From the NCBI GenBank assembly GCA_963422465.1, contig OY730172.1:4464001-4528000 (forward strand): DNA of 64,000 nucleotides. Direction: 5' to 3'. The notes beneath the pieces were generated by a model. It was not told the origin of the DNA and made no database searches. It saw nothing but the letters and a program-made list of their open reading frames with translations. Of this stretch, positions 6,374 through 48,830 are shown one piece after another; the stretch's first letter is position 1, and each line of letters starts with the position of its first letter. The translations under genes were made by a program, and so were the position numbers. Source of the DNA: Lichina pygmaea (taxonomy: Eukaryota; Ascomycota; Lichinomycetes; Lichinales; Lichinaceae).

Positions 6374-6386
6374 ACCACATCGTCAA

Positions 6387-12767: not shown

Positions 12768-13040
12768 TCACTTCTGAGACAGACAAACTTGCACCACAGC
12801 AAGTTGTTTGAAGACTGTGTCATGTGTTGCCTCTTCAGCAGCCACATCCTCATGAAGGTTGTCCTGGGATATGTTCAGAGATTCCCAGGACACAGAGACA
12901 CAAGACCTCCTACACTGAGTGCACACAGTACATTTCAACTTATCGTCTTCCCCCAGTATCTGGAAGCACGGACGACCACAGAGAACACAAAAGTCGCAGA
13001 GCTCGCACGTGACTTTGGAGACAGGACCAAGTTTCATCAA
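12768..13040 (-). CDS. Antisense Zn2Cys6-type protein frame of element D
   Basis: A 90-residue frame on the strand opposite to the element's own genes, lying between chromodomain and 3' LTR. Residues 15-47 carry C-x2-C-x6-C-x11-C-x2-C-x6-C (Cys 15, 18, 25, 37, 40, 47), which fits the fungal Zn2Cys6 binuclear cluster consensus. An acidic helical tail follows. The start region (GPVSKVTCELC) resembles the family G antisense frame (GKVSKVSCSAC). Elements C and E have related sequence at the same place. A role as a DNA-binding regulator is inferred from the motif alone. Confidence 0.6.
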   Translation of the reverse strand: MMKLGPVSKVTCELCDFCVLCGRPCFQILGEDDKLKCTVCTQCRRSCVSVSWESLNISQDNLHEDVAAEEATHDTVFKQLAVVQVCLSQK

Positions 13041-13067
13041 GATGATGAAAGATGGAGAGGAGGATAG

Positions 13068-13492
13068 TGTTACAACCCAGGAGGAACACAGTCTTTATAC
13101 TCACAGAAAGCAGCAGACAGGATACTGGACAGAAGTACCAGGCTGCATAACACGGGAAGCAGTCACGTGACTGGCGAGACCAACCAGGGGTTGCTCACCG
13201 CAGTATGCATATGTGTGAGCAAAGTGAGCAGAGCTCACAGACTGGGCACTATATAGTCTGGTGATAGTTCCCTTATGGAACAATTGTCTTCAACTTATGT
13301 TGTGATCCAGACAACTAGATCTACTTCAATACAATCCTTTTGTACGAAGCCATTGATCAGGTGTCATCATCACCATGTTCCACCAAACCCCTTCACACTT
13401 CTTGACACTCCTCTCCTGCAAGAACCAACCTGCCTTCCACATCTTGCCCTAATCCTATACTCGGATAGGACAGTACGGTACAGACCGCAACA
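13068..13492 (+). repeat. 3' LTR of element D
   Basis: A 425-bp LTR with TGTTAC...GCAACA ends. Its 3' half is close to the C and E LTRs, and includes ACTATATAG and TTGTCTTCAAC. Its 5' half (U3) is different and lacks the 42-bp tandem units seen in E. Confidence 0.85.
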
Positions 13493-19600: not shown

Positions 19601-20085
19601 GACTGAAAAGCTCAGCCTGCAGTGTGGACGTATCAATGACTGTCACCGACAAGTTCTCACCATCCACCTCTATCTCAGCAACAAGGCATTGGAGCTTCTT
19701 CTTCGCCTGACCCTTGGCCCCTTCAAGAACCTTCCACTTCTGGGATACACAAGCCTGCAGCTTGGTAAGCTACTCAACAAGAGCATCCTGCTTGGCTTCA
19801 TCAGCAGCCAGATCATCATGAAGGTTATCCCAGGTCATGTTCAGCAACTCCCAAGAAAGCAACACACAGGACTTCCCATGACAAGTGCATTCAGCACACT
19901 TCAATTTATCGTTGTTGTCAGACATTTGGAAACAGGGCTTGTGATTCAAAGCACAGAAGTCACACAGAGCAAGTGACAGGAAGTTACAATCACAAATCTG
20001 GACTGCCAGCTGCTTTCAGTAAACAGAGGCATGTGATTTTGCAGACATACTCAAGAATTCATCAAGACAATGAATGAAAGGGAGG
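19590..20085 (-). pseudogene. Antisense Zn2Cys6-type frame region of element C
   Basis: On the strand opposite to Pol, this stretch encodes sequence clearly homologous to the antisense frames of D and E (CDFC...KCAEC...SC pattern). It sits at the same place, between chromodomain and 3' LTR. It is broken. Confidence 0.5.
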
Positions 20086-24519: not shown

Positions 24520-25060
24520 TCCTTCATTCATTGTCCTGATGAATTCTTGAGTATGTCTGCAAAATCACGTGCCTCTGCTTACTGAAAACAACTGGCAGCC
24601 CAGATCTGTGATCATAACTTTGTGTCACTTGCTCTGTGTGACTTCTGTGTTTTGAACCACAAGCCCTGCTTCCAAATGTCTGACATCAACAATAAGTTGA
24701 AGTGCGCTGAATGCACTTGTCATAGGAAGTCCTGTGTGTCGCTTTCTTGGGAGTCGCTGAACATGACCCAAAATAACCTTCGCAAGGATTTGGCTGTTGA
24801 TGAGGCCAAGCAGGATGCTCTTGTTGAGTAGCTTGCCAAGCTGCAGGCTTGTGTGTCCTGAAAGTGAAAGGTTCTTGAAGGTGCTGAAGGTCAAGCAAAG
24901 AAGAAGCTCCAGTGCCTTGTTGCTGAGATGGAGGTGGATGGTGAAGACTTGTCAGCAACAGTTATTGACATGTCCACACTGCAGGCTGAGCTGTTCAGTC
25001 CTGCTGCTGCTGGAACTGCTGCAGAAGGAGCTGGCAGTTCGCAAGGTTCCTGAGTGGTTC
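24520..25060 (+). pseudogene. Antisense Zn2Cys6-type frame region of element E
   Basis: Opposite strand to Pol, between chromodomain and 3' LTR. The cluster CDFC...C...KCAEC...SC (about 24637-24737) keeps C-x2-C-x6-C-x11-C-x2-C-x6-C. It is homologous to the D and C antisense frames. It is broken, and is listed because position, strand and cysteine spacing are conserved. Confidence 0.55.
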
Positions 25061-26135: not shown

Positions 26136-26140
26136 CTTGT

Positions 26141-26553
26141 TGTTAAAGGCCAGTCCACGTTCACACAGAATGTGGGTGGTCCTGTCTTCGACCGAGGAGG
26201 GCAGGGACTCAATAGATGAATAGCAAGTGGGGTAACTCTCTTGCTATTGTCGCTCGTAATGTGCGTTCAGCCTGGAGAGCTATTCTCTCCGGCTATCTGG
26301 GTTCTTATATACAGGAGCCTGAGGGGGGGGGGTCCTCCCGAGGGGTATCAGCTTTCTGCGTGGACGAGCTGGACGAGCTGGTTACACATCGTCCACCTCG
26401 TCCACCGGGTCGGGTGAACATTGTTCCTGTGGACGAGCTGGACAAGCTGGTTACACATCGTCCACCTTGTCCACCGGGTCGGGTGAACATTGTTCCGTGT
26501 ACCTCTGTACACTCGCTTCGGTCAGCTCAGCCGTTCCGGCCTGGGCCTTAACA
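26141..26553 (-). repeat. 3' LTR of element G'
   Basis: 413 bp with TGTTAA...TTAACA ends. It contains two near-identical blocks built on GTGGACGAG...CTCGTCCAC inverted repeats (about 26362-26498). The copy at 32086 differs by six C/T or G/A changes, mostly at CpG. Confidence 0.93.
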
Positions 26554-26662
26554 CCATCCCCTCCCTCCAAAGGTTCTGTCCCCAGATCCTCTCGCTTCTC
26601 TTACCATGACCCGGACATCTTGTTGTAATCATCGTGGAGTCCTCGGTTCTCGTGTTGGCAAG

Positions 26663-27136
26663 ATGGGCAAGGTATCCAAAGTTTCATGCAGCGCATGTCG
26701 TCGTGACCGTGCCAAGTGTGTCGTCAGTTCAGAGTCCACATTTTGCGGTCAGTGCCTTGAGAAGGGTCGCCGTTGCGATCTCCATCTCGCGGAGTCGGAG
26801 TGGGAGAAGATAGAGCTTGAGCGCACTCAGCTCAAGGCTCAACTGAAGGAGATCAAGGAGCAGGAGTCTGTTCTCCTTCCTCGCAAACTTCGTCTCCGTC
26901 GTCAGTTGGGTGTGTTGTCCAAGAAGGAGGGTGAGGCCATCAAGTGTGAGCTTGCTGTGATCGAGGATCAAGAGGATCTCGAGCAGGAGGCTACGCGTGT
27001 GGAGTCCCCGCCGCCTTTGGAGGACTTCTTCTCTTCGGAGGCTTTGGCTTCTCTTGAGCCTTTGTCTCCATCGATCCTGGCTTCTGCGGGTTTTGTCGGT
27101 GGAAACTCCGCAGTTTCTTGTTCGTCTCAGGGCTGA
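26663..27136 (+). CDS. Antisense Zn2Cys6 coiled-coil protein of element G'
   Basis: A 157-residue open frame on the strand opposite to Gag-Pol, starting 109 bp from the 3' LTR. Cys 9, 12, 19, 28, 31 and 38 form C-x2-C-x6-C-x8-C-x2-C-x6-C with basic residues between, the exact fungal Zn2Cys6 DNA-binding signature. Residues about 43-100 are charged and leucine-rich with heptad spacing, so a dimerising coiled coil is likely. The tail is acidic/serine-rich (PPLEDFFSSEAL). I start at the Met matching the G copy (47676); an in-frame upstream ATG exists at 26606. The known Gal4 family binds DNA as dimers; a role in element or host transcription is inference. No homologue can be confirmed without a search. 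Confidence 0.75.
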   Translation: MGKVSKVSCSACRRDRAKCVVSSESTFCGQCLEKGRRCDLHLAESEWEKIELERTQLKAQLKEIKEQESVLLPRKLRLRRQLGVLSKKEGEAIKCELAVIEDQEDLEQEATRVESPPPLEDFFSSEALASLEPLSPSILASAGFVGGNSAVSCSSQG

Positions 27137-27249
27137 AGTTCTTGGTGGGTTCCCACAAGTTCTCCTCATTGTCATACCCTAACCACTTGACCAGGTATTT
27201 GATTTTCCGTCCGCTTCTCCGGCTGTCTAGGATCCTTTCGACATCGTAC

Positions 27250-30760: not shown

Positions 30761-32047
30761 TGTCGTAGCCTGGTGAAGGTCCACTTGCGTTGCGATGTCT
30801 CGGGGCTGTGAGATGCTGATGGTGTCGTCCACCCATCGCGTCACTCTTGCTTCGCCGTCCTCCGACAAGGTCGCATCCTGTCGTCGGAGTAGTGGTGTCT
30901 CGGGAACTGGTGGCATGCTGGTTATGTCAATCTCGTAGTCTGTTGTGTTGAATTCGGAGATCAGGTCATCCTCCCAATGAACTTTATCGATCTGGTCTTG
31001 GATTGTGTGCAGGTCCTCCAGTGACCTCTGCAGATCGTTCTCCAGTCTTTCGATGTGCTGTCTGAGATTGTCCTCCTGTCTGAGGAGTGTTGCTTCTGAC
31101 CGGTTCATGGGTAGCGTGCCTCTGGGAGCCCTCGGTGGCTCCTGAATACCCTTGCCTTTCCAGGCACCGGTGGCATTCAACTGCTTACCCTTGCCTTCCT
31201 TCTTCTTCTTGCTTTGGCAGTTGGCTGCGAGGTGTCCTACCTTCTGGCAATTGTAACACTTCCGTGTTTCTTTCTTCTTTGTTGCCTGTGGTGTTGTTGC
31301 ATCGATCTCCATGGGTGTCAAGCTGTACTTGTCTTGTGCTGGCACTGTCTTTTTGCCCCATGGCCTTGCATGCTTGCCTCGCTTCTCGAGTTCTCGTTCG
31401 AACTGTCAGTCGTCGATGCGTACCGCTGTGTCGATCATATCCTCGAGGTCGGTGGGTCGGTCTCCTCGTGCGATGTCATCCTTGACTTGTTCCTTGAGAG
31501 CTTGGTAGAATAGTGCCGTCAAGGCACTGTCTCCCCATTGTGTCCTCACTGACAGCTGTTGGAACTTCGCCGCAAAGTCTGATGCTGACCCTGTCTGCCG
31601 TAGTGCTTGGAGCTTTCGTTCCGCGTCTCGTTCTTCATCAATGACCCCGAAGGTCTTCTTCATCTGGGTCTTGAAGGTAGAGAATCTCCCAATGATCTGC
31701 CGTGTCATGGTCTCCATGCTAGAGGGGTCTTCCTTGTTGTCGAGGAAGTCTTGTAGGTAGACATTGAACCAGGCAAATGTCGGTCCGTCCAGGTAGGAAG
31801 CTGCGAACAGCACCTTCTCCTGTTCCGTAGGGAATTGTGCGGCGTTGAATCTGTAGTAAAGCTCAAGCTGAGAGAAGAATAATTCCAATCCCCCTCGTGA
31901 TCTATCGTACCTCTTCGGCGTACCTACCTTCAACGGCTTTGGAGGTAAGGTGAGGGTGGTAGGGACAGGTGGTTCCTGGGCTTGCGCCTGAGGCGCAGCC
32001 CAGGCTTGGCCTGCCTGCGAAGGGGTAGGGCTGCGTGGATCTGCCAT
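30760..32047 (-). pseudogene. Element G' Gag region
   Basis: Starts MADPRSPTPSQAGQAW. Capsid-like helical domain, CCHC knuckle CYNCQKVGHLAANC, then a long linker leading to the W-C-C-H module (WKGCEDHHCKEH, WELCFTEKCERH). Confidence 0.85.
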
Positions 32048-32085
32048 CGTATTGAGCCGGTGTCCTATGTGTTAGAGGCTGAAAC

Positions 32086-32498
32086 TGTTAAAGGCCAGTC
32101 CATGTTCACACAGAATGTGGGTGGTTCTGTCTTCGACTGAGGAGGGCAGGGACTCAATAGATGAATAGCAAGTGGGGTAACTCTCTTGCTATTGTCGCTC
32201 GTAATGTGTGTTCAGCCTGGAGAGCTATTCTCTCCGGCTATCTGGGTTCTTATATACAGGAGCCTGAGGGGGGGGGGTCCTCCCGAGGGGTATCAGCTTT
32301 CTGCGTGGACGAGCTGGACGAGCTGGTTACACATCGTCCACCTCGTCCACCGGGTCGGGTGAACATTGTTCCTGTGGACGAGCTGGACGAGCTGGTTACA
32401 CATCGTCCACCTCGTCCACCGGGTCGGGTGAACATTGTTCCGTGTACCTCTGTACACTCGCTTCGGTCAGCTCAGCCGTTCCGGCCTGGGCCTTAACA
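32086..32498 (-). repeat. 5' LTR of element G'
   Basis: 413-bp twin of 26141-26553. The bases beside it (rc GTTTCAGCCTC) pair with AGGCTGAA inside the LTR, the self-primer layout. Confidence 0.93.
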
Positions 32499-32503
32499 CT
32501 TGT

Positions 32504-35500
32504 GACATGTTGTCAGAGGTTGATGACATTGTTCCCTGTCTGTTGGATAAGGTCTGTGGTTTTGGTGATTCCTGGGTGACTATGTGCTGGATTATCGTGG
32601 TAGTTCCTTATTAGTTCTTCAGTGTCTTCTGCTGTGAGCTTGTTGATCTGTGGTTAAGGTACCAGGTTCCCTTGCTAGTCCTACTGTAAGATTGTTCCTT
32701 GGTGTTCATCATCTTCCATGTGGTCTTTTCATCAGCTTAGTGTGTCTGCTCTCCTGTTGTCTTGTCCGGGGGTGTACAAGATCTTAAACTTGTGTTGCCC
32801 TAGGAGTTCAGCCTATCTGACTTGCTGTCTGTTCAGCTTCTTGGTTGTTGTGAATGTTGTCAGATTCTTGTGGTCTGTGAGAACAGTGAGTTCAGAACTG
32901 CTTTCCACGTACACTCTCCAGTGTTTGATTGTGTTGACGACTGCCAGTAGCTCTTTGTTATAGATATCATAGTTCTGTTCCACTTGTGTTATTTTTCGTG
33001 AGTAGTAGGCAACTGGGTGCCACTTACTGTCTGCCTGTTGGCATAAACATGCTCCCACTGCCTGATCTGAAGTGTCTGTCTTGATTTGTGTTGGTTGGCC
33101 TGTCTTGAAGTTGAGGAGAACTGGTTCCTTGGCACAAGTATCCTTGAGCTGCTGGAATGCTTTTTGTTATCTCTCTGTCCACCAGTACTCCGCGTTCTTC
33201 TTTGTGAGTTCTGTCAGTGGTGTTGCTGTCTGGGAGTAGTTCTTAATAAACTGTCAGTTGAAGTTGGCAAATCTTAGGAAGGCTTGTACTTCCTTGACTG
33301 ATGTCAGTGTTGGCTATTGTTGAATCACTTTGATTTTCTCAGAGTTGATCTTGATCTCTTCAATTCCTATGATGTATCTGAGGAATTCAACTTCCAGTTT
33401 GTTGAACTTGTATTTCTTCAGGTTGAGCTTGAGCCCTGCCTTTTGTAGGTATCATAGAACATCCTTCACATGTTTGGTATGTTCCTGTTGCGTGTTCGAG
33501 TAGACAAGAATGTTGTCTAGGTAGGTGATAGCTGTTTGGTCCAGGTGTGCTCTGATGACATTGTTGATCAATGCTTGACATGTTGCTGGTGTGTTCATGA
33601 GTCCGAATAGCATAACCAGATACTCATAGTGTCTGTATTGGGTTCTGAAGGCTGTCTTCTATTCTTCTCCTTCTTTCATGTGTATCAGGTTGTATGCTCC
33701 TTTCAAGTCCAGCTTGGTAAAGATTGTAGCTTGGCTGATCCTGTCTCACAATTTGTTCGCATTTGGCAACAGATATCAGTTTTTGATGGTAATGTTGTTG
33801 AGTTTCCTGTAATCCACACAAAGTTGAAGACTTCTGTCTTTCTTTGGTGCAAATAGTATTGGGTATCCTGCTGGTGATTAAGATTCTTGAATGAAACTCT
33901 TTTTCAGGTTTTCCTCCAGGTACTCGCAAAGTACTTGGAGCTCTTTCTCTGATAACTGGTAAATTAGTCCAAATCCTGGCTCTGTCCCTGGTTGCAACTT
34001 GATCTCATGATCCCAAGGTTGGTGCTTAGGCAACACTGCTGTTGTTGTCTCTTCCTAAAAGAGGTTATCATACCCAGGTCAGTACTCTTCAGAGATCTCC
34101 AGAGAGTTAACAACTTCCTCTCTCTTCATCTCTGACTGTTTGGCCACCTGGTTCCAGGGTGTGCCTGTCAAGGTAGACCTCTTCTCTTGAGAGTTGTCCT
34201 TTCTGTCAGTGAGGTTCCACTGAGGACTTCTTCCCTTATCTGTCTATGCCTTCTGTGGCTGGTAACAGGTCTGAGCTGTGTTGTTAGTGCAGTTCCTAAA
34301 CATGAGTACTTCTATCCTCCAGTTAACAACTGGGTTGTGCTTCTTTAGCCAAGGCATCCCCAAATAGATATCCTGAGTGGCCAACTTGACAATATCAAGG
34401 TGGATTCTTTCAGCATAGTGTCCAGTAACTATTTCTATTGGCTGTGTCTTATGGCAGACTAGCTCTGTCTGTCTATTTGCTATCGCAAGCTGATAGGGCT
34501 ACTGCTTGCATCTCCTTCCAGTGCTGAGGGTATTGTAAAGTTATCTTGAAATGTAGTTCCCACTGGCTCCAGAGTCAACAAGTGTGTATGTCTGTACTGG
34601 CGTGTTGGCATGTAGTGACACAGGCAATCACAGGTGCTTTGTGTTGCTAGGGGTCATGTTGTTGAGCTCCTGATGTCACCCCTTGATAAGAGAGTTCAGT
34701 CTTTTCCTGATTGAAGTGTCTTTCTACTGACTGGGCAATGGGTCCAGCCATTCCTATCAGTTCTGAGGAATCTGTTCATGAATTTGTCTTGCTGATGCTT
34801 GTCACATCCAGGCTTGAGGCAGTACTGCTAATTGTTGATGTAGCAGTTGTGGTTGTTGCCTTGCTGTAGGAACATGAGGTGTTCGTGCCAATCATGTGTG
34901 TGCCCAGGGAATACAGTGTGTTGGTGTTTGTCCCAAAGATAGATCTCACACACATCCTTCTTGCAATTGACCTAATACTTGTGGCAGGTGGTGTGGTAGG
35001 GTGAATGTCCTCCATACCTTTGTAGTTGTTTGTGGTAGGTGTAGTAGTGTTTTGTGCAAAATCTCCACTGTAGTTCACTGTGCTGTAGGTTTCATGGGTC
35101 CATGCTGTAAGTATAGCTTCCTTGTGGTATTTCTTCTTTGATAGACACGGGTTTGTCTCAGTCCCCATCAGAGGTGGTTAAGGGCTCCTGTCCCTTGTCC
35201 TGACCTGTCTGTTCTGGTAGGTCCTTGCCTCCTGATGTTACCAGTTGGTGGGCTGCTTCCAATATCTGATTGTAGTTGTCCTATTGTTTGAGGGATAGCT
35301 GAGCCTCTCCTGGTGGGTCCTCCAGCTTGATGACATTCCAGTCTCTGTCAAGTGTATTAAGTTGCTGTCAGTGCACTTTGTTCTTTGAACGACAGTCTCT
35401 TGCCATGTGGCCTAGCTTGCCACAGGCATAGCACTTCAGTGCTTTCCTCTTTTTGTTGTTCCTTCCCTTTGTGAACCTTTCTTTGTGGTGGACTGCATCC

Positions 35501-36190
35501 AGTTCCATGGGTGCATAGCTATATGGGTTATGTGGTGGTGTCTTGTTAGGCGGCTTGTAGTGGTTGCTCACATGCCATGCAGGGCAGCTGTATCCTCTGT
35601 CATGGCACTTCTCCATCACTTGCTTGAATAGCTTGTCATCAATGTTGATTGCTTGTGTGATGAGCTTGTCCAGTGTGTTGACCACTTGTCTGTCGAAGGT
35701 GATTTTGTCCTTCATGTTTTCTTTGAGTCCACGTCAGTACATGACTATCAGAGTGTTGTTGTCCCAGTCAGTCAGTACTGAGTATTACTTGAACTGTGTG
35801 GTGTACTCTGTGGTGGAGTGTTGTTATTTGATGTGCTGGATCATTCGTATAGCCACTTTGTCTTTGTTAGATAGTCCAAGAATCTTTTTGATCTTGTCCT
35901 TGAATCACATCTATTTTGTCATCCATTCTGTCATGCTGTCATGGTCTCTGTTTCCTGAGAGATGTTTGTTGACGTAGAGCTTGATCTATTGATAAGTATT
36001 ACCTCTTATGTAAGTGGTTGCAAAGAGGGGCCACTTCTCCTTAGGCAGCTTCGTCTCTGGTTGGAATTGAAAGTAGACTTGGAGTTACATAAGCCAGTTG
36101 TTGACCTTGTTTCTTTCACTGTAGAACAGGTCTGGCTTGGCGATGCTAACTTTTCCATCTGGGAATCTGGGGTTGGTTACTCCTGAGGTA
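32504..36190 (-). pseudogene. Element E: Gag, protease, RT, RNase H and integrase N-terminus
   Basis: Same gene order as element C. The best-kept blocks are Gag with knuckle CYACGKLGHMARDC (about 35390-35440), the W-C-C-H module (about 34770-35010), RT and RNase H. Heavily broken. Confidence 0.82.
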
Positions 36191-36213
36191 CTTATTCTTG
36201 AGGGTCTTCAAAG

Positions 36214-36815
36214 TGTTGCAGTCTGTACTGTGCTGTCCTAACTGAGTATAGGATTAAGGGTGAGATGTGGAAGGCAGGTTGGTTCTCGCAGGAGAGGAGT
36301 GTCAAGGAGTGTGAAGGGGTTTGGTGGAACATGGTGGTGGTGACACCTGATCAATGGCTTTGTACAAAAGGATTATATTGAAGTAGATCTAGTTGTCTGG
36401 ATCACAACATAAGTTGAAGATGATCATTCCATAAGGGAACTATCACCAGACTATATAGTGCTGGCCTGTCAAGATAATCAAGATTGTCTCAACAGTCTTG
36501 ACATCAAGACAGGTGAGATTGTCTTGACAGTCCCACTATGTTATGCACCCTGCGTCAAGACTAGTGAGATTGTCTTGATGCTTCATGCATCCTGTGTCAA
36601 GACTGGTGAGATTGTCTTGATACTTCATGTATTCTGCGTCAAGACTGGTGAGATTGTCTTGATGCTTCATGCATGCTGTGTCAAGACTCCTGTGTGTGTC
36701 TCGACAGTCACGTGACTTCTTGTTGGTTGGTCACTTGACTTCCATGGTGTCCTCTTGCCTGGCCCACAGCCTGATTGCCTATAAATAAGTGGCTCCTATC
36801 CCATGGGTTGTAACA
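36214..36815 (-). repeat. 5' LTR of element E, with 42-bp tandem units
   Basis: 602 bp with TGTTAC...GCAACA ends (minus strand). Plus-strand 36551-36676 holds three 42-bp units (TGCGTCAAGACTAGTGAGAT type) plus a partial fourth. Each contains short GTCAAGAC / GTCTTGA inverted repeats. Confidence 0.92.
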
Positions 36816-37013: not shown

Positions 37014-37284
37014 TGTCACGGTTCTGGCCCAGTTGCATATCTGGCACAAGCCACGCACCTTGCCGGGAAGTCCCATCTGCACTGTTTGCCTGTTTGCTCC
37101 GCTGTTGCCTGATCCCCTGCCTATAAGAACTTCTCCTGCTCCCCCAGCTTCTTCTCTTCTTTTCTCTTTTCCTTCCTCGTCTTTCACCTTGTACATCAAT
37201 CCAAGTCTCAAGTCTCAAGCCAAGTCAGGTCAAGGTTACCAAATCAGTTAGGCTTGAGTTCTGCTCTGCTATTGCCTTGTCACA
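37014..37284 (+). repeat. 5' LTR of element F
   Basis: 271 bp, TGTCAC...GTCACA, with TATA-like TATAAGAAC and a long pyrimidine tract downstream of it. Confidence 0.93.
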
Positions 37285-37286
37285 CT

Positions 37287-37295
37287 GCGAAAGAC
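37287..37295 (+). other. Presumed self-primer site of element F
   Basis: GCGAAAGAC is complementary to GTCTTTCGC in the 3' LTR (48725-48733). Element A has ACGAAAGAC opposite GTCTTTCGT, so both halves of the pair changed together between copies. Confidence 0.6.
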
Positions 37296-37366
37296 CTACC
37301 CAACCATAACACACTTCACCAAGCCATGTTCACGTCCTTGTCATATCTCAACAACCAGACCAAGCC

Positions 37367-38230
37367 ATGCCAGTTGCTGGAAATGACAAGTTCCTTCGCA
37401 ACATGTTTGCAGAGTTCATGCAAATTCAAGCTACTAACACTACTCCCAAGTCCAAGTCTGAACGCACTGCTGACTCAGAGATCTTCAGTGGTGATGGTGG
37501 AAACACGGAAATCACACATGAGAAGCTTGAGAGCTTCATCACATCACTGTCACTCAAGATGACACTCAACACTGACTGGTACCCCATGGAAACATTGTGG
37601 ATTGCGTACATCTTTTCACGCACGACTGGCACTGCGCAGTCCTACATCTCAGCTAAGATCACGGCTGGCCAGTACATTGACTGGCACAACATTGTCCAAG
37701 ATCTCTGGAACGCCTTCTCCAACCCAGACCCAGAGTTCCTAGCTCAGAGGAAGCTTATCACCTTACGTCAGGCCAACTGTTCCTTTGCCGAGTTCTTCAC
37801 AGAGTTCAATCAGTATGCTCCACGCACAGACTTCAACAACAAGACCTTGAAGTGCTATCTTTGATGCGCTGTCTCTGAAGAGCTTGCCAAGCAGCTTGTC
37901 AGCATCAACCTCAAGGACATCAGCTATCAGAAGCTTGTTGAGGAATGCCAGCTGCAGGACAACCAGTTGTGTGCCACTTCTGCCAACTCTCACTGTCCAC
38001 GTCAAGCACCTCCCACCCAAGCCTCAGTTCCACAGTCAGGAGCTTCAGTTCTGTGTCCAGGGTTCATCAAGCCAGTCTTCACGCCACAGCCACCAAGTCC
38101 TACTATGGATCTCAGCCACTCTAAGCTGACACCAGAAGAGTGAGAACATCACCAAAGCAAAGGCCTCTGCTTCTACTGTGGGAACCAAGGTCATGTCTCA
38201 ACCTTCTGTCTAGTGAAAAGCATGCCTGTT
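37367..38230 (+). pseudogene. Element F Gag region
   Basis: Starts MPVAGNDKFLRNMF. It has a retrotransposon capsid-like domain (YISAKITAGQYIDWHN) and ends in one CCHC knuckle, CFYCGNQGHVSTFC (about 38168-38209). The W-C-C-H module of families B and G is absent. Confidence 0.85.
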
Positions 38231-38399
38231 GTTGCCACCACCACAACCACCACCAAGTCTGCCACTGTTGAGACTACTCCAGAGTCGGAAAACAAGTAGT
38301 CCTTGGTTATCGTCACACCCAAGGACATGAAAAGAATCTCCATGTTGGCTATCTGTCTCCAGACCAGCAATTGGACAGCAAGTGCTTGTTTCTTCCTTG

Positions 38400-41300
38400 T
38401 ATCCTAGATGGGAAATTCAAGTGCAATGCTCTTATTGACTCTGGCTGTTCAGTATTTGGCTGCATTGGTGCTTCCTTTGCGCAATCTCTTCACCAAGAAC
38501 CTCTCCCCTACCCACGCACATTGTGATTGTTTGATGGCAAGACATCACAAACCACGCATCTCACCAAGACAATCATGACCACAGCACATGGTGTGCACCA
38601 GGAAGAAGTCTCTCTCTTTGTGTCTCCTGGTCTTCACTATGATGTGATTCTGGGGATGCCATAGCTCCAGAAGCACAGGCCACACATTGATTGGGCAAAC
38701 ACCTCAATCATGTTCAAGTCAGATCACTGCCAATCCACATGCCTCAAGTCAAACAATAGCTATCCAATCTCTTTGGATCTTGAAGCCAAGATGTCTGCTG
38801 GAAAGCCTCAGGATCCCAAGCCTCTTTCTGCCACGCCAATCCCCATCAATGCTGCCGCATTTTCTCTCCTTGCTGCCAAGCCAGATCACCAGGTGTTCAG
38901 TGTTTCTCTGAGAGACATTGAGCAGGTGTTGAAGCCAAAGAAGTGTGTGGACCCTGCCACACTTCTCCCTGCTCAGTACCACAAGTTCCTGGACGTCTTC
39001 AGCAAGGATGACGCTGACAAGCTTCCTCCTCTACGCCCAGGAGTTGACCACAAGATCAAGATGGAACCAGGAACCCAGGCACTCTCTGGACCTCTGTACA
39101 GCATGAGCAGAGAAGAACTTGAAGTTCTCAAGAAATACCTGACAGAGAACCTGAACAAGGGCTTTATTCAAGCATCTTCATCACCTGCTGCTGCACCAGT
39201 CCTCTTTGTCAAGAAGCCAGAAGGTGGATTGCATTTCTGTGTAGACTACAGAGCACTCAACACTATCACCATCAAGAACTGTTACCCCCTACCACTGATC
39301 CGGGAGATGTTGGACCAGCTTTGCAAAGCTGTGTGGTACACCAAGCTTGACATTGTTGGTGCCTTCAACTGTATCTGGATGAAGGAAGGTGAAGAATGGA
39401 AGACTGCGTTCCGCACACGCTCAGGCCTCTACGAATACCTTGTCATGCCCTTTGGTCTTGCCAATACTCCAAGCACATTCCAGAACTACATCAATGATGT
39501 TTTGGGACCTGACATCCTTGACGTCTTTGGCACTGCCTATGTGGATGACATCCTTATCTACAGTCAGACACTCAAGGAACACTAGAAGCATGTCAAGCTT
39601 GTTCTCAGTCGACTACAAGATACAAGCCTGCAAGTTGACATCTCCAAGTATGACTTTGAATTCCATCAAGTCAAGTACCTTAGCCTCATCATTCAGTCTG
39701 CCACTGAAGACAGCTGACCTGGATCTGTGAGTATGGACCCAGCCAAGACTGACACCATCAAGGAGTGGAAGCCTCCTGCCAGTCTCAAGGAAGTGCAGAG
39801 CTTTATTGCCTTTGCAAACTTCTACCGCCAGTTCATCAAAGACTTTGCCAAGCTTGCATCCCTGCTCACAGCTCTGACCAAGAAGAATGTTGCCTTCAAG
39901 TGGGAAACCCCAGAGCAGCGCTTGTTTGAAAGCATCAAGAAGGTGTTCAGCACTGCACCCATCCTGCAGCACTTTGATCTGGAGAAGGAGTGTGTTGTTG
40001 AGACTGACACTTCTGACTACATCTCTGGTGCTGTCCTGTCACAGCCAGACCATGAAGGAGTTCTACACCCTGTTGCCTTCTTGTCACGCCACCACCTGCC
40101 AGCAGAATGCAACTACGAAATCTACAACAAAGAGTTGCTGGCAATTGTCCGTGCCTTTGAAGAATAGTGAGCAGAGCTTGAAGGATCTCTAGAACCTGTC
40201 AAAGTGATCTCTGATCACAAGAACTTGGAGTACTTCATGTTGTCAAAGTGCCTTTCCCGCCGTCAAGCCTGTTGGAGCAAGTTCTTGTCACACTTCAATT
40301 TCAAGATCAGCTACCGTCCAGGCAGTCAGTGCAAGGCCGACGCCCTCACTCGACATTCCCAAGACCTCCTGTCAGACAGTGATCCCTGTCAAGACTTCAT
40401 GGAGCAAGTCATCCTCAAGCCCAAGAATCTTGCACATTCAGAGGTTCAAGTCAAGCCCATCCAGATCCTGAGACGTTCAGAAGCTGCACTAGTTGACACT
40501 GAACCTGATGCTACACCTCTTTCAGACGTTATCCAAGCTGCCTATAACAACCTTGCTGAAGGTGATCCAGTGGCAACAGTGTCACAGATGCTAAGGGATG
40601 GTGTCAGGCACAGTCGAGAAGTGTCTCTCTCAGACTGCAGCTTGGAAAATGACTGTCTCTTCTACAAGAACTGACTCTGGATCCCTGAGAACAATAAGCT
40701 ACGCCTACACCTGTTCCAAGAAGCCCATGACCAAGCAATGGCTGGCCACACTGGGATTGCCAAGACCCACAATCTTCTGTCTTGTTGGTACTATTGGCCA
40801 AAGATAGTGAACATCATACAGCAGTACATCAGGAATTGTCATGTCTGCTCTCAAGCAAAGCCTGCCCGTGATTGCCAAGGAGAGCTGCTGTCTCTTCCTG
40901 TGCCTCAGCAATGTTGGCAGGATCTGGCTATGGATTTCATTACTAACTTGCCCAAGTCAAGAGATGCCTGCTTCCCTGGTGCCAAGCACATCTGGGTCAT
41001 CACTGACTGTCTCACCAAAGAACACCACTTTGTGCCATGTGCTGAGATGACAACCTCACATCTTGTCCGGATGTTCATCCAGTTTGTTGTCTGTACCCAT
41101 GGCTTGCCCAGGAGCATTGTCTCAGACAGAGGAGGTCAGTTTGTCAGCTTATTCTGGAAAGTACTCTGTGCCCATCTTGACGTCATGCTATGACTATCCT
41201 CAGGACACCACCCAGAGACAGATAGTCAGACAGAACAAGAGAATCAGGAGCTTGAACGCTACCTGAGATCCTATGTCAACTATCTCCAAGATGACTGGGT

Positions 41301-41675
41301 CCAATGGCTTCCTCTGGCAGAGTTCACGCAGAACAACTCCCAGTCTGATTGCTCTGGCATGTCACTGTTCTTTGCCAACAAAGGGTTCCATCCACAGCTC
41401 AGCATCACACCCATGGGTGAAGCCTGCAACCAAGATGCTATGGAAATCTCTGGAGAAATGACGCAGATTCTGGAACAGTTGCAAGCTGAACTCCGACTAT
41501 CCCAGGAAGCTCAAGCTCACACCGCCAATTTACATCAAGTCCTGTCACTATCCTATCAAACTGGAGATCTTGTTTGGCTGAATACCAAGAACATCAGAAC
41601 ACGCCGCCTATGCAAAAAGCTTGACGACAAGTGGATTGGACTATTCAGGGTGTTGAAGACAGTCAGAAGCTGTGC
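38400..41675 (+). pseudogene. Element F Pol region up to the element G insertion
   Basis: Protease (DSGCS), RT with AYVDDILIY (about 39535), RNase H ([24 protein letters not shown]) and integrase with a HHCC-like zinc N-terminus and SDRGGQF core. Domain order is that of chromoviruses. Broken in several places. Confidence 0.87.
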
Positions 41676-41750
41676 TGTTAAGGCCTAGGCCGGAACAGCC
41701 CAGGTAAGCGAGGGAGAGGTGTTAGTCATGCAGAACAACATCCGACCGAT

Positions 41751-41995
41751 CCGGTGGACGAGCAAGAGCTAAGCGAGGAGCTCGTCCGGTGGACGAGCAG
41801 GAGCTAAGCGAGGAGCTCGTCCGGTGGACGAGCAGGAGCTAAGCGAGGAGCTCGTCCGGTGGACGAGCAGGAGCTAAGCGAGGAGCTCGTCCGGTGGACG
41901 AGCAGGAGCTAAGCGAGGAGCTCGTCCGGTGGACGAGCAGGAGCTAAGCGAGGAGCTCGTCCGGTGGACAAGCAGGAGCTAAGCGAGGAGCTTGT
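41751..41995 (+). repeat. Seven 35-bp tandem units in the 5' LTR of element G
   Basis: Seven exact-length 35-bp units (CCGGTGGACGAGCAGGAGCT...). At each unit boundary the inverted repeat CTCGTCC-GGT-GGACGAG forms (7-bp arms, 3-bp spacer). The 3' LTR has only two units (47876-47945). The array lies about 50 bp upstream of the TATA box, in U3. Confidence 0.95.
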
Positions 41996-42047
41996 CCACG
42001 CAAAAGGATGATACCCCTCGAGGAGACCCCCCCCCTTGGGGCATCTG

Positions 42048-42053
42048 TATAAA
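42048..42053 (+). promoter_or_regulatory. TATA box of the element G LTR
   Basis: TATAAA. About 39 bp downstream is AGGCTGAA, the self-complement of the primer site, which would put the transcript 5' end a usual distance (about 30 bp) from the box. Confidence 0.55.
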
Positions 42054-42221
42054 GACCCCCAAAGAGCCCGGAGGGATTAGCTCTCCAGGCTGAACGCACA
42101 TTACGAGCGACAATAGCAAGAGAGTTACCCCACTTGCTATTCATCTATTGAGTCCCTGCCCTCCTCGGTCGAAGACAGGACCACCCACATTCTGTGTGAA
42201 TGTGGACTGGCCTTTAACAGT

Positions 42222-42229
42222 TTCAGCCT
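42222..42229 (+). other. Presumed self-primer site of element G
   Basis: TTCAGCCT, two bases after the 5' LTR, complements AGGCTGAA at 42087-42094. The same pair is present in element G'. Confidence 0.55.
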
Positions 42230-42257
42230 CTAACACATAGGACACCAGCTCAATACG

Positions 42258-43800
42258 ATGGCAGATCCACGCAGCCCTACCCCTTCGCAGGCAGGCCAAG
42301 CTCGGGCTGCGCCTCAGGCGCAAGCCCAGGAACCACCTGTCCCTACCACCCTCACCTTACCTCCAAAGCTGTTGAAGGTAGGTACGCCGAAGAGGTACAA
42401 TGGATCACGAGGGGGATTGGAATTATTCTTCTCTCAGCTTGAGCTTTACTACGGATTCAACGCCGCACAATTCCCTACGGAACAGGAGAAGGTGCTGTTC
42501 GCAGCTTCCTACCTGGACAGACTGACATTTGCCTGGTTCAACGTCTACCTACGAGACTTCCTCGACAACAAGGAAGATCCCTCTAGTATGGAGACCACGA
42601 CACGGCAGATCATTGGGAGATTCTCTACCTTCAAGACCCAGATGAAGAAGACCTTCGGGGTCATTGATGAAGAACAAGATGTGGAACGAAAGCTCCAAGC
42701 ACTACGGCAGACAGGGTCAGCATCAGACTTTGCGGCAAAGTTCCAACAGTTGTCAGTGAGGACACAATAGGGAGACAGTGCCTTGACAGCACTATTCTAC
42801 CAAGCTCTCAAGGAACAAGTCAAGGATGACATTGCACGAGGAGACCGACCCACCGACCTCGAGGATATGATTGACACAGCGGTACGCATCGACGACCGAC
42901 AGTTCGAACAAGAACTCGAGAAGCGAGGCAAGCATGCAAGGCCATGGGGCAAAAAGACAGCGCCAGCACAAGACAAGTACGGCTTGACACCCATGGAGAT
43001 CGATGCAACAACACCACAGGCAACAAAGAAGAAAGAAACACGGAAGTGTTACAATTGCCAGAAGGTAGGACACCTCGCAGCCAACTGCCAAAGCAAGAAG
43101 AAGAAAGAAGGCAAGGGTAAGCAGTTGAATGCCACTGGTGCCTGGAAAGGCAAGGGTATTCAGGAGCCACCGAGGGCTCCCAGAGGCACGCTACCCATGA
43201 ACCGGTCAGAAGCAACACTCCTCGGACAGGAGGACAATCTCAGACAGCACATCGAAAGACTGGAGAACGATCTGCAGAGGTCACTGGAGGACCTGCACGC
43301 AATTCAAGACCAGATCGACAAGGTTCATTGGGAGGATGACCTGATCTCCGAATTCAACACAACAGACTACGAGATTGACATAACCGGCATGCCACCAGTT
43401 CCCGAGACACCACTACTCCGACAACAGGATGTGACCTTGTCGGAGGACGGCGAAGCAAGAGTGACGCGATGGGTGGATGACACCATCAGAATCTCACAGC
43501 CCAGACATCGCAGCGCAAGTGGACCTTCACCAGGCTACGACACCAGCCTGCGGACGTCCTTATTGGAAAGGATGTGAGGACCACCACTGCAAGGAACATC
43601 TCCTAGAGAAAAGGAGAAGGCACTACTTCCCTGGCCCAGAAAACCACAAGAAAGCCTGGAGCATCAAGCACCAGCTAAGCCAGCAAGGGAAAGAACATGA
43701 TGACTGCGGAGAAGACGCATGGGAGCTATGCTTCACCGAAAAGTGCGAAAGACATGTGGCAGAACACCAGGCTCAGGGCCTTGGTTGTTCAAAAAACTAG
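42258..43800 (+). pseudogene. Element G Gag region with W-C-C-H module
   Basis: MADPRSPTPSQAGQAR start, capsid-like domain, knuckle CYNCQKVGHLAANC (about 43048-43090), and at about 43550-43790 the repeats WKGCEDHHCKEH and WELCFTEKCERH joined by a KRRRHYFPGPE block. Closely related to G'. Confidence 0.87.
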
Positions 43801-46800
43801 CAGTGCTCTTCAAATCCGGAGTCGGAAGAGCAGGCAAGACAACACTCCGGAGAGAAGGGGTCAAGCAGAATCTTGACACGACAGCCTGCAGTCTGCATTT
43901 TCGCATCAGGATGAGAGTCAACGGGCATCTGACAAACACCATGATCGACTCTGGAGCTACTGGCAACTTCATGTCAGAAAGTTTCGCCAGGAAGCACAAG
44001 ATCCCGACTCAGGAAAAGAGGAATCCATACCAACTAACAGTAGTGGACGGGACACCACTCTCCAACAACCAAGGACAAGTGACGAAGGAGACCAAGAACC
44101 TACGACTGTGTGTTGACAGTACAACAATCAGATCAGAAGAATTCGACTTGGTCCAGATACCACATGAAGTTATATTGGGTCTTCCGTGGTTGGAAAGTCA
44201 AAACCCAAGGATCGACTGGAAAAGAAGGCACCTAGTCTTTCTGAAGAGGAGTCTGGCAACTCGAGCAGAGCCAGAGAAAGTGAGAATCAAAGAGATCTTA
44301 TATGCAGGGTGGAAGAAGCACCACCGGTGAGGGCGAGCCTATGTGGCTTGGATGAAGCCCCAAAACTATCAACTTTGCACCACGCATGACGCCGTGGGCG
44401 AGACTCAGGCACCGCAGCTGCCAAGTGAGTATAAAGACTACCAGGAGATGTTTGGTGAGGAAGCAGTCGCGACGCTACCAGAACACCAAGAGTGGGATCA
44501 CGAAATTCCGCTGGAAGACAGAAAGAAACCCACACATGGCCCTATTTACGCTCTATCAGCAAAGGAGCTTGAGGCCTTAAGAGATTACCTGGACGAGAAC
44601 CTAGCGAAAGGGTTCATAAGACCTTCAACATCACCGGCCAGATACCCGATATTGTTTGTGCCAAAGAAGGACAGCAAATTACGACTGTGCATCAACTACC
44701 GGCAGCTTAATGCGATCACGATTAAGAATCGCTACCCGCTACTGTTAATATCAGAAATCCAGGACTGAATCCAAGGAGCCAAGTGGTTTACCAAGTTCGA
44801 CATCCAAGGCACTTTCAACCTGGTTAGGATGAAAGATGGCGAAGAATGGAAGACAGCCTTTCGTACGAGGTACGGGCATTACGAGTATACTGTTATGCCA
44901 TTCGGCCTTACGAATGCACCGGCGATGTTCCAATCACTTATTAACGCCATCCTCCGACAATACCTGGATATATTTGTTACCGCTTATATTGACGATGTCT
45001 TGGTTTACACCAATGGAACCCTGGAGGAGCACAGACAGCATGTCAAGAAGATCCTACATGCGCTCCAAGAAGCAGGAATGAGATTATGCCTTGATAAGAG
45101 TGTCTTCCACGTGAAAGAAGTGGAATATTTGGGATCGATCCTGACGACGGAAGGAATCTGTATGGATGATACAAAGATCACGGCAGTACAAGACTGGCCA
45201 ACACCCAAAAACCTCAAAGAAGTCCAATCCTTCCTGGGATTTGCGAACTTCTACTGACGATTCATCAAGGAGTACTCAAGGACAGCAGCACCCTTGACTG
45301 AACTAACAAAGAAGGAAGAAACCTTCACATGGGGGAACAGCCAAGAGAGAGCGTTCCAGGAGCTGAAAGAGAAGTTCACCTCTGCACCCATACTGGCATC
45401 ATTTGATCCTGGACGGCGGATCATCATAGAGACAGATGCCTCAGACCAAGCACTTGGATCTTGCTTGTGTCAACCAGACACCGAAAACCGCCTACACCCT
45501 GTCGCATACTGATCGAGAAAGTTCTCTGGCCCAGAACTCAGGTACGATGTCCACGACAAGGAGTTGTTAGCGATTGTCGACGCATTCCAGGAGTGGAGAC
45601 CTTACCTGGAAGGAGCAAAGTACACAGTGGACGTGTACTCAGACCACAAGAATTTGGCTTACTTCACGACGACGAAGAAGCTAAACAGACGACAAGTCCG
45701 ATGGGCGGAGCTTTTAGCTTCATACGACTTCCAGATCTTCTATCGAAAAGGATCAGAAAACGCACGAGCGGACGTGCTTAGCAGGCGGCCTGATATGACG
45801 ACAGACGACACGACAGAAGAGCGCCCAATCCTTGCGACAAAAGGACAAACTCTGGTCTATGCTCAACCTCAGTTAGCGAAAACTGAAGAAATGGGTGCAC
45901 TCCTGACCCTAGGCCACAACGTTGCGGCCACGAACAAGGAAGAAGTGCCAGAAAGCGCACAAGAGGACATGATTCGACAACATCATGATAGACCTCTACA
46001 CAGACATCCTGGGCAAGACAAGACTCTGGAAAAGATCCGGAGACGTTACCACTTCAACGGAATGAAGCGGAAAGTGACAGAATTTATTCGCAACTGCGAA
46101 GAGTGTGCGAAAAACAAACTGTCACGCCACAAACTCTATGGAGAGAGTCAACAAATAGACCTCCCAGAAGTGGCTTGGGATACCATCACAATGGATTTTG
46201 TGGTGACACTGCTGAGGTCAGAGGACCCAGTAACAAAAGTGAAATATGACAGTATCTTGGTGGTTGTCGACAAACTCACCAAATACACTCACCTGATCCT
46301 GTGGCGAGAGACAGGAACAGCGAGCAAACTCGCCAATATCCTGCTCAAAGAATTGGTTAGCCAGCGAGGGCTACCCACGAAGATTATCTCGGATCGAGAC
46401 AAACTCTTCACCTCGAAATTCTGGAACACGTGGACAAGACAGCTAGGGATAGACACGAGGATGTCTACCGCCTACCATCCACAAACAGACAGACAAACTG
46501 AGAGAACAAACCAGACGATGGAACAGTACCTACGCCACTACGTCAACCACCGACAGGACGATTGGGTAGAACTGCTACCAATGGCTCAGTTTGCGTACAA
46601 CGATCAGCAACACAGCGTGACAGGCATGACACTGTTCTTTGCGAACTACGGCAGAAACCCCCACTGGGAAGCGATGGCGGCTGGAAGTGGCACTTCAACA
46701 AACATCGAAAAACTCACTGCTATGCATGAGGAAATAAAGACTGCAATTGAATCCGCACAAAAGACAACAAGCCACCACCTAAACAGCAAAAGGTTGAAGA

Positions 46801-47249
46801 GACCAACCCTGGAGAGGGGGGATAAGGTCTATTTGTCAACAAAAAACCTGCGCTCGAAGCGACCGAGCAAAAAGCTGGATCATGTACGAATCAGACTGTT
46901 TGAGATTGAGAAGCGCACTGGAGAAGTCAACTACCGACTGAGACTGCCGAAAAAGGCACGGATACACCGAGTATTCCATGTCTCACTGCTCAAGCCAGCA
47001 CCCAGCGACGTGGCAATCAAAACAGAATAGCACTTTGAGGACGACAAAGAAGAGTACGATGTCGAAAGGATCCTAGACAGTCGGAGAAACAGACGGAAAA
47101 CTGAGTACCTGGTGAAGTGGTTAGGATTTGACGAAGAGGAGAATTTGTGGGAACCAACCGAGAACTTCAGCTCTGCGATGAACCAGAAATTGGTAGATTA
47201 CCACCGAGCAAATCCGCAGCGACCAGGTCTGACGGAGACAACAGCTTGA
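43800..47249 (+). pseudogene. Element G Pol region
   Basis: Protease (IDSGATGNFMSESF), RT (AYIDDVLVYTNG), RNase H, integrase (long open stretch about 45560-47030; YHPQTDRQTERTNQ) and chromodomain (YDVERIL...EYLVKWLGF). The end, near 47249, overlaps the 3' end of the antisense frame by about 80 bp tail to tail. Confidence 0.88.
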
Positions 47250-47676
47250 GAGAAGCCAAAGCCTCCGAAGAGAAGACGTCCTCAAAGGACGGTGGAGCAG
47301 CAGCTTGACAGGCCTCCCGTTCGCGGATAACACGGAGGGCCTCTTGTTCCTGAGCATCGAGGGACTCTTGATCCTCGATGGCTGACAGCTCACGACGGAT
47401 GGCATCAGCCTCCTTCTGTGAGAGACGACCCAGCTGCCGGCGGAGGTGGATCTGCCGGGGAAGCAGCTTTGACAGTTGGTCATCAGTCTCCCGCAGCTGA
47501 GCCTCGAGCTGCTCACGCTCAAGCTCCATCTTCTTCCATTCTGATTCCGAGAGATGAAGGTCGCAGCGACGACCCTTCTCGATGCACCGACGACAAAAAG
47601 ACGATGCGGAACTCACGACACACTTGGCGTGGTCGCGACAACAAGCACTGCATGCGATCTTTGATTCCTTGCCCAT
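47167..47676 (-). CDS. Antisense Zn2Cys6 coiled-coil protein of element G
   Basis: A 169-residue uninterrupted frame on the strand opposite to Gag-Pol. Cys 9, 12, 19, 28, 31 and 38 give C-x2-C-x6-C-x8-C-x2-C-x6-C, the Zn2Cys6 cluster. It is followed by about 70 residues rich in E, L, R and Q with coiled-coil periodicity, then SFEDVFSSEAL near the C-terminus. The G' protein aligns along its whole length. It starts (ATG 47676) 124 bp inside the 3' LTR and would need a promoter in or near that LTR, firing towards pol. Its conservation next to broken pol genes suggests that it was under selection of its own. Function is inferred from the cluster only. Confidence 0.77.
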   Translation of the reverse strand: MGKESKIACSACCRDHAKCVVSSASSFCRRCIEKGRRCDLHLSESEWKKMELEREQLEAQLRETDDQLSKLLPRQIHLRRQLGRLSQKEADAIRRELSAIEDQESLDAQEQEALRVIREREACQAAAPPSFEDVFSSEALASLKLLSPSDLVAADLLGGNLPISGSSQS

Positions 47677-47800
47677 TTTGCCAACACGACAAGAGAGAAA
47701 ACCACGGCGACAAGTTCAAGTTGTCTGGCTTTGGTTCATGGCAAAAGAGGAGTAGGAACAAAAAGGATCTGGGGACAGAACCCTTGGAGGGAGGGGATAG

Positions 47801-48169
47801 TGTTAAGGCCTAGGCCGGAATGGCCCAGGTAAGCGAGGGAGAGGTGTTAGTCATGCGGAACAACATCCGACTGATCCGGTGGACGAGCAAGAGCTAAGCG
47901 AGGAGCTCGTCCGGTGGACGAGCAGGAGCTAAGCGAGGAGCTCGTCCACGCAAAAGGATGATACCCCTCGAGGAGACCCCCCCCCTTGGGGCATCTGTAT
48001 AAAAACCCCCAAAGAGCCCGGAGGGATTAGCTCTCCAGGCTGAACGCACATTACGAGCGACAATAGCAAGAGAGTTACCCCACTTGCTATTCATCTATTG
48101 AGTCCCTGCCCTCCTCGGTCGAAGACAGGACCACCCACATTCTGTGTGAATGTGGACTGGCCTTTAACA
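47801..48169 (+). repeat. 3' LTR of element G
   Basis: 369 bp. Identical in layout to the 5' LTR but with two 35-bp units instead of seven, which accounts exactly for the 175-bp length difference. A purine-rich tract (GGAGGGAGGGGATAG) precedes it, as expected of a polypurine tract. Confidence 0.94.
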
Positions 48170-48174
48170 TGTGC

Positions 48175-48559
48175 CTGCTATCTGGAGCTTCCACACACTC
48201 TCAAGATCCACCCTGTCTTTCACGTTTCCCTTCTACGTCTGACACCTGCTAATCCTATCCCTGGCCAATCAAATGAACACCCTGGCCCTGTCATTGGTCA
48301 AGACACAGATGAAGAGTTCCAGGTTGAAGAAATCCTTGACTCCAAGCCAGCAACATCTTGACAGAAGTTCAAGTACCTGGTCAAATAGTCTGGATGGCCA
48401 ATTGAAGATACCACTGAAGAGCCTATTGAGCATCTTGACAACGCCAAAGACGCCATCTACAACTTCCATGAGAAATACCCAAGGAAACCACGGCTACGGA
48501 ACTACACCCACGAGCGGCCTGAGGCTCACAGGAGTTCACCATGTGAAGGAGGGGGGTAA
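48175..48559 (+). pseudogene. Element F: end of integrase and chromodomain
   Basis: Continuation of element F after element G. FHVSLLRL-like integrase tail and chromodomain (FQVEEIL...KFKYLVK.SGWP), then about 100 bp to the LTR. No antisense frame. Confidence 0.82.
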
Positions 48560-48830
48560 TGTCACGGTTCTGGCCCAGTTGCATATCTGGCACAAGCCAC
48601 ACACCTTGCCGGGAAGTCCCATCTGCACTGTTTGCCTGTTTGCTCCGCCGTTGCCTGATCCCCTGCCTATAAGAACTTCTCCTGCTCCCCCAGCTTCTTC
48701 TCTTCTTTTCTCTTTTCCTTCCTCGTCTTTCGCCTTGTACATCAATCCAAGTCTCAAGTCTCAAGCCAAGTCAGGTCAAGGTTACCAAATCAGTTAGGCT
48801 TGAGTTCTGCTCTGCTATTGCCTCGTCACA
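48560..48830 (+). repeat. 3' LTR of element F
   Basis: 271 bp, TGTCAC...GTCACA, twin of 37014-37284. Followed by the TTTTC target duplication and LINE L1. Confidence 0.93.

Follow-up and report, generated by a model that had tools for sequence, protein, structure and literature searches.

The DNA analysed in this study (the window) is a stretch of 64,000 nucleotides and contains a Ty3/Gypsy retrotransposon, element G, which is assigned to the chromoviruses by its domain order, its flanking LTRs and its polypurine tract (Table 1). Pfam profiles recognised in its frames, in this order, gag, a zinc knuckle, protease, reverse transcriptase, RNase H, integrase and a chromodomain; in the window copy an in-frame stop divides the chromodomain end from the preceding pol frame. 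The element is bordered by 5-base target repeats (TGTGC, at 41671-41675 and 48170-48174) and is nested in another Gypsy element on the + strand (family H, 37014-48830). Its two LTRs are 99% alike over a stretch of 295 bases, yet the tandem array of the 5' LTR has 7.1 units and that of the 3' LTR 2.1.

Between the chromodomain and the 3' LTR, on the strand opposite to gag-pol, an earlier note on this DNA had reported an intact gene of 169 codons for a Zn2Cys6 coiled-coil protein. We found the frame as described, running from an ATG to a stop at window:47167-47676 (minus) and overlapping the final 83 bases of pol, whose stop codon is at 47247-47249. The spacing of the six cysteines was borne out (C9-x2-C12-x6-C19-x8-C28-x2-C31-x6-C38), and the charged, leucine-rich stretch downstream of them is present. 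The word intact holds from the ATG at 47676, but many relatives have an in-frame ATG further upstream that opens a frame of 190 codons, and this longer frame is closed by a stop in the window copy. We dropped the upstream ATG as the true start because its extra codons are unconstrained between the two types of the gene described below (pN 0.37, pS 0.29). This choice is tentative, because the ATG of the 169-codon frame is ATA in 25 of 68 copies of type 1, 18 of these 25 having an upstream stop as well.

A search of all six frames of the window for the cysteine spacing gave 5 matches, compared to a mean of 0.0 in 40 windows resampled by a Markov-1 model. Each of the five is antisense and located in the interval from pol to a 3' LTR: one is in G, one in a second element of the same group and three are in copies of another family (M).

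Table 1. Features of element G and of the related elements in the window.
Feature	Position	Strand	Remarks
Element G	41676-48169	+	Ty3/Gypsy chromovirus; LTRs 544 + 369 bp
5' LTR of G	41676..42219	+	
35-bp array, 5' LTR of G	41750..41997	+	7.1 units
gag-pol of G	42258..47030	+	split into several frames by stops
Chromodomain end of pol	47031..47249	+	PF00385, E=1.1e-14
3' module	47060..48030	+	most of chromodomain, antisense gene, polypurine tract, U3 with array and TATA; borders from identity jumps, resolution about 60 bases
Antisense gene (type 1)	47167..47676	-	169 codons; Zn2Cys6-type cluster at residues 9-38, then charged coiled-coil-like stretch
Upstream in-frame stretch	47677..47739	-	part of 190-codon frame in some relatives; stop in window copy
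Polypurine tract ahead of 3' LTR of G	47786..47800	+	from sequence
3' LTR of G	47801..48169	+	TGTTAAGG...CCTTTAACA
35-bp array, 3' LTR of G	47875..47947	+	2.1 units; inverted half-sites GGACGAGC / GCTCGTCC
Sense TATA-like box of G LTR	47998..48005	+	from sequence; putative function
M1 antisense Cys6 frame	12768..13094	-	108-codon open frame; adjoining LTR with single unit, GTGAGC half-sites
M2 antisense Cys6 frame (fragment)	19770..20015	-	42-bp arrays in LTRs (at least 14290-14528 and 20150-20388)
M2 antisense Cys6 frame (fragment)	24586..24831	+	minus-strand element; 42-bp array 24238-24383 within 3' LTR (at least 24138-24508)
Second element, 3' LTR	26141..26553	-	69-bp array 26360-26496
Type 2 antisense gene	26606..27136	+	176 codons; in second element, on minus strand
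Second element, 5' LTR	32086..32498	-	69-bp array 32305-32441
GTCACGTGAC palindrome sites	13162-13171, 14331-14340, 20191-20200, 36707-36716		

We call the antisense gene of G type 1 and that of the second element type 2; relatives of the window type 2 protein (P0043, P0054) are 60-64% identical to the window type 1 protein. The genome holds at least 150 full-length copies of type 1 and at least 61 of type 2. With the type 1 query, the best 150 of 277 candidates were scored, with identities down to 74%; all 150 cover residues 1-168 or more (one begins at residue 2), and 113 of them, as counted from the table of results, have no stop. With the type 2 query, the best 150 of 291 candidates were scored, 61 of which are at least 85% identical to it (53 of these without a stop), and the other scored matches, at 56-66% identity, are type 1 copies mixed with an apparent older third type. 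The copy sets favour intact copies because the ranking was by protein score. For the analysis of variants, 70 type 1 loci gave 68 copies (L042 and L048 were left out for indels, and secondary partial copies in L004 and L052 were not used) and 32 type 2 loci gave 30 (L087 and L099, which are cut, were left out).

The earlier note had named a dN/dS near 1 among related copies as the sign of a frame without coding constraint. Between types 1 and 2 we found a dN/dS of 0.27 in the antisense gene frame (2040 pairs, i.e. 68 x 30 copies), compared to 1.01, 1.77, 1.04 and 1.50 in four of the other five frames and 0.42 in the one whose third positions coincide with those of the gene, as calculated for a subset of the pairs. 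In all 98 copies, each of these five frames is interrupted over the length of the gene. The zinc-cluster region shows some of the strongest conservation (pN 0.13-0.14, pS 0.56-0.79). Taken one by one, the six cysteines are kept in 67, 68, 67, 67, 67 and 68 of the 68 type 1 copies and in 29, 30, 30, 30, 28 and 29 of the 30 type 2 copies; all six together are present in 64/68 and 26/30.

Within type 1, the variants outside CpG differ between those seen once (31 nonsynonymous, 6 synonymous, 6 stops) and those shared by at least two copies (24, 40 and 1; Fisher p=8.6e-6), a pattern as expected of decay after insertion on top of selection among replicating elements. Transitions at CpG were kept out of this test because they are recurrent; they gave no selection signal (singletons N7 S8; shared N72 S33 with 2 stops), and neither did the variants within type 2 (singletons N20 S8; shared N14 S5). 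Such transitions at CpG columns make up 122 of the 230 variants in the 68 copies of the type 1 gene, as methylation and deamination would give, and they change many arginines to cysteine, histidine or glutamine. In family M, the dN/dS of the antisense frame is 0.14 over 62 codons (two M1 and four M2 copies, all decayed; the sample is small and dS saturated), compared to 0.81-1.04 in four of the other frames and 0.21 in the one that shares third positions. The antisense frame of G is therefore a real, protein-coding gene of the retrotransposon, and it is under purifying selection. Non-coding antisense transcripts exist in other elements (PMC7264820), and a chance frame, or an antisense RNA without protein function, could be imagined here as well. 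The constraint tests contradict this, with dN/dS values of 0.27 and 0.14 in two families, the difference between singleton and shared variants and the lack of any other open frame, and we consider such an explanation extremely improbable.

The nature of the encoded protein is less certain. It had been taken for a Gal4-type binuclear zinc cluster, which the cysteine spacing supports, but Pfam Zn_clus (PF00172) lends weak support, with all matches below the cut-off of the profile. The check suggested for the 169-residue frame of the window gave no Zn_clus match even at E<=10. Among 15 G-type proteins, 7 matched at this level over the right residues, all below the Pfam gathering cut-off of 21 bits; the best scores were 20.0 bits (P0009, E=7.6e-4), 15.8 (P0003), 14.9 (P0054) and 11.4, followed by lower ones, and the other 8 of the 15, the window copy included, gave nothing at E<=10. 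A genome-wide search with PF00172 gave 40 matches at E<=10, 34 of them above the cut-off, none of which, compared by eye, is one of the listed type 1 or type 2 copies. The PROSITE pattern for Zn2Cys6 proteins (PS00463) is C-x2-C-x6-C-x5-12-C-x2-C-x6-8-C with flanking residues, and it fits 64/68 type 1 and 20/30 type 2 copies. A histidine three residues past the last cysteine is conserved like the cysteines themselves (68/68 type 1, 29/30 type 2); a Gal4-type cluster needs no such residue, which could be a seventh ligand in the G-type protein. Because Zn_clus is below threshold and the histidine is conserved, we label the protein Zn2Cys6-type by spacing and not as a confirmed member of the family.

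It is possible that the Cys6 domain binds zinc in another fold, such as a RING-like fold or another one for protein interaction, and not as a Gal4-type DNA-binding cluster. The Zn_clus scores, subthreshold or absent, and the histidine beside the six cysteines would agree with this, as would a profile search against PDB, in which nothing was significant and RING finger 141 came on top (E=0.3), RING with a coiled coil standing ahead of Leu3 (E=1.3). However, the PROSITE pattern fits most type 1 copies and two thirds of the type 2 copies, and Zn_clus covers the right residues in the seven matching relatives. We regard another fold as improbable. The stretch after the cluster is, judged by eye, probably a coiled coil, and to this extent the coiled-coil protein of the earlier note is supported; dimers themselves would be a putative property of the protein. 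Like the fungal Zn2Cys6 factors Gal4 and Leu3 (PF00172), the G-type protein has the cysteine spacing and a coiled-coil-like stretch, but it falls below the Pfam cut-off, has no middle or activation domain that was recognised and is borne by a retrotransposon.

In a second chromovirus family, M, an antisense Cys6 gene occupies the same site and strand, and this family has U3 arrays of its own and hundreds of candidate copies (679 and 492 candidates with the two M-type queries, the best 150 of each being scored). In four database proteins and three window frames of this family there was no Zn_clus match; the nearest Pfam match was DUF3716 (E=0.055) for P0090, the longest M-type protein found, which has the spacing C-x2-C-x6-C-x11-C-x2-C-x6-C followed by a coiled-coil-like stretch. 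A comparison of the G-type and M-type profiles aligned the cysteines weakly (probability 4.7, E=0.0084), and common descent of the two is not claimed because of this weak alignment.

We found that the gene of G belongs to a block that moves between element lineages. In 150-base steps from 42126 to 47075, the identity of G to the second window element never leaves the range of 92.7-98.7%, and transversions stay at 0-0.7%; from 47075 to about 47975, the identity falls to 63-80% and transversions rise to 8-19%. In the average of 10 type 2 loci out of 12, the similarity to G is low between about 47060 and about 48030, with 58-88% identity and transversions of up to 25%, and R/U5 beyond about 48030 is alike again. 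The opposite mosaic was found, too: in 37 type 1 copies the pol belongs to a lineage (polB) that is only 77-80% identical to that of G, and yet the 10 of them that were profiled share the block with G, transversions being no more than 0.5% between about 47060 and the array and below 1% up to about 48020, after which the sequences diverge again. The borders are thus the same in both directions of the mosaic. Among 80 copies (of 82 long loci, two of type 1 being dropped for lack of enough pol), polA with cassette 1 occurs 31 times, polB with cassette 1 37 times and polA with cassette 2 12 times. The best 40 DNA matches of polA in the genome, compared by eye, lie beside listed type 1 genes in 19 cases and beside listed type 2 genes in 21; for polB, with a query taken from a type 1 locus, the best 40 include 39 next to type 1 genes and 1 that adjoins no listed copy. 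The block from the chromodomain through the antisense gene to the U3/R border has therefore been exchanged between element lineages, perhaps in one or two independent events. Under standard reverse transcription, borders of this kind would result from an inter-molecular first-strand transfer at R together with one template switch in the chromodomain.

The exchanged U3 contains the tandem arrays. Type 1 LTRs have a 35-bp array of 2-7 units, and type 2 LTRs have arrays of 69 bp (8 loci) or 47 bp (3 loci). An array was detected in 63/70 type 1 and 11/12 type 2 loci (none in 8/82), and the nearest array fits the type of the gene in all 74 loci where one was detected, these being related copies and hence not independent. 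In family M, a 50-bp array is present in the three M1 loci in which the LTR side is covered (L059, L033, L061), the window copy having a single unit, and a 42-bp array in both M2 copies of the window; the M2 LTR is interrupted by a type 1 element in L063, with no unit left, and in L069, with one. Family H, whose LTRs in the window are at 37014-37284 and 48560-48830, has neither an antisense gene nor an array.

The window's type 1 and type 2 U3 have three 12-base words in common, two of which are the half-site CCGGTGGACGAG and its one-base CpG-decay variant CCGGTGGACAAG, the third being near the core promoter. The half-sites are arranged in inverted arms. Those of type 2 (17 bases, one mismatch) and of type 3, a single copy in L103 with the half-site GTGGCAGAG (18 bases, one mismatch), were reached by 0/300 shuffles each, and the exact arms of type 1, M2 and M1 by 11, 3 and 67 of 300. 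Four half-sites per unit, as found in M1, type 2 and type 3, occurred in 12, 8 and 8 of 2000 shuffles; the two per unit of type 1 and M2 are no more than shuffling often gives (613 and 1078 of 2000). In L103 all four half-sites have changed alike, from GTGGACGAG to GTGGCAGAG, with the inverted symmetry kept, and compared to type 2 this is not a change of the CpG decay kind. In all six family M copies viewed, a TATA box about 35 bases inside the LTR faces the antisense gene; none was seen on the antisense side in types 1 and 2.

The earlier note held that the element encodes its own, separately transcribed regulator. Both the separate transcription and the regulatory role are inferred, and the U3 arrays, the module exchange and the TATA boxes of family M fit both. 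We suggest that the antisense gene specifies a self-encoded regulator that binds the LTR of its own element, which we hold to be the best explanation of the whole and moderately probable. The gene product would be small, with a Zn2Cys6-type cluster and a coiled coil, and its dimers would bind the inverted half-sites in the U3 of the same element. The array would lie between two divergent promoters: from the 5' LTR, a sense promoter would give the gag-pol RNA, and from the 3' LTR, an antisense one at the edge of the LTR would give the regulator, so that the same array might act on gag-pol when in the 5' LTR and on the regulator when in the 3' LTR. Because of this position, the protein would control transcription of the element and probably its own, too. 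Activation, or escape from silencing, seems likelier than repression. Gene and array would travel as one 3' module through template switching between co-packaged RNAs. It should be noted that their joint exchange can be explained by physical linkage alone.

The protein could also be selected for an action elsewhere, such as targeting of integration together with the chromodomain, nuclear import or an effect on host genes, with the arrays serving as enhancers for host factors. Tandem repeats are present in many LTRs, most of the chromodomain is inside the exchanged block, and the GTCACGTGAC palindrome common to the U3 of M1 and M2 resembles a host-factor site. However, the array type tracks the gene type at the loci that cover both, and family H, which is without the gene, is also without the array, and we consider an action elsewhere possible but unlikely.

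VANDAL elements are DNA transposons of Arabidopsis, and their VANC proteins suggest another way in which a protein could act on an array. The G-type protein would then be an anti-silencing factor and not a conventional transcription factor: bound to the tandem motifs in U3, it would keep DNA methylation or heterochromatin away or remove it. In VANC targets, the tandem repeats that the protein recognises are variable and differ from one related element to the next (PMC5735166). The arrays here have 2 to 7 units and differ by type, 122/230 type 1 variants are CpG transitions, and the G/B half-sites contain CpG. The Cys6 motif points instead to a fungal zinc cluster, and we find the anti-silencing explanation rather unlikely.

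The exchanged block might be the retrotransposon counterpart of a phage immunity region, with regulator and operator array diverging together and being swapped as a single cassette. This analogy is speculative and we give it a low probability. If it were true, a new cassette would allow an element to escape the control of the resident copies, possibly with a burst, and the pairings of polA with either cassette, and of cassette 1 with either pol, would represent heteroimmune variants.

Antisense genes have long been known in LTR retrotransposons, to our knowledge without a function. The earlier note regarded such a gene as undescribed in Ty3/Gypsy chromoviruses. For the antisense gene as such this does not hold, because brtn, reported in 2011, is an antisense gene of the chromodomain-bearing Boty elements of Botrytis, according to later papers (PMC7264820, PMC8365987, PMC4227169); the Zn2Cys6-type motif, as far as these sources go, appears to be new. 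In the same descriptions, the Boty-like chromoviruses of Botrytis cinerea and Sclerotinia are, like G, fungal Ty3/Gypsy elements with a chromodomain and an additional gene that runs antisense in the interval from pol to the 3' LTR, and these descriptions mention no array or module exchange. Antisense frames in plant Gypsy elements, to which the earlier note referred, are established (PMC7264820, PMC11963269). The plant antisense ORFs (Grande gene23, RIRE2 and Retand TRP28) are likewise conserved antisense genes in the interval between pol and the 3' LTR, and Retand TRP28 is said probably to bind DNA, with tandem repeats found in about half of those elements (PMC11963269). They differ from G in the TRP28 domain, in having the repeats between pol and the LTR instead of in U3, and in their lineage.

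HBZ of HTLV-1 is also an antisense gene that reads from the 3' LTR, and it encodes a bZIP regulator that lowers LTR activity (PMC6950816, PMC3736048). It differs in being a bZIP protein of an animal retrovirus that works via CREB factors. VANC resembles the present case in being encoded by the element and in having tandem target motifs that diverge along with the protein (PMC5735166), but it has other domains, DUF1985 and DUF287. We would regard HBZ and VANC as the nearest working analogues and claim membership of neither. Among the titles and abstract openings listed in our literature search, there was no LTR retrotransposon with an antisense Zn2Cys6 gene, with a matched U3 array or with gene and array exchanged as a module. 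An antisense gene at this site of the element is known, and the Zn2Cys6-type motif and the matched array appear to be new.

If the reading as a self-encoded regulator is right, the antisense gene of G would be a fungal analogue of HBZ or VANC, and the exchange of modules would be a mechanism by which retrotransposon lineages change the specificity of their control. Because the motif, the constraint, an adjacent candidate target and natural swaps are found in one genome, self-regulation of an LTR retrotransposon becomes directly testable.

Some further features of the window were observed. The GTCACGTGAC palindrome in the M1 and M2 LTRs lies outside the arrays and occurs 4 times in the window, compared to 0.08 expected; it is perhaps a site for a host factor. 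The type 2 element is nested in an M2 element on the minus strand (24138-36815). Frames like those of non-LTR retrotransposons (reverse transcriptase, CCHC) were seen by eye in two orientations, at 4447-11278 and 22369-24141.
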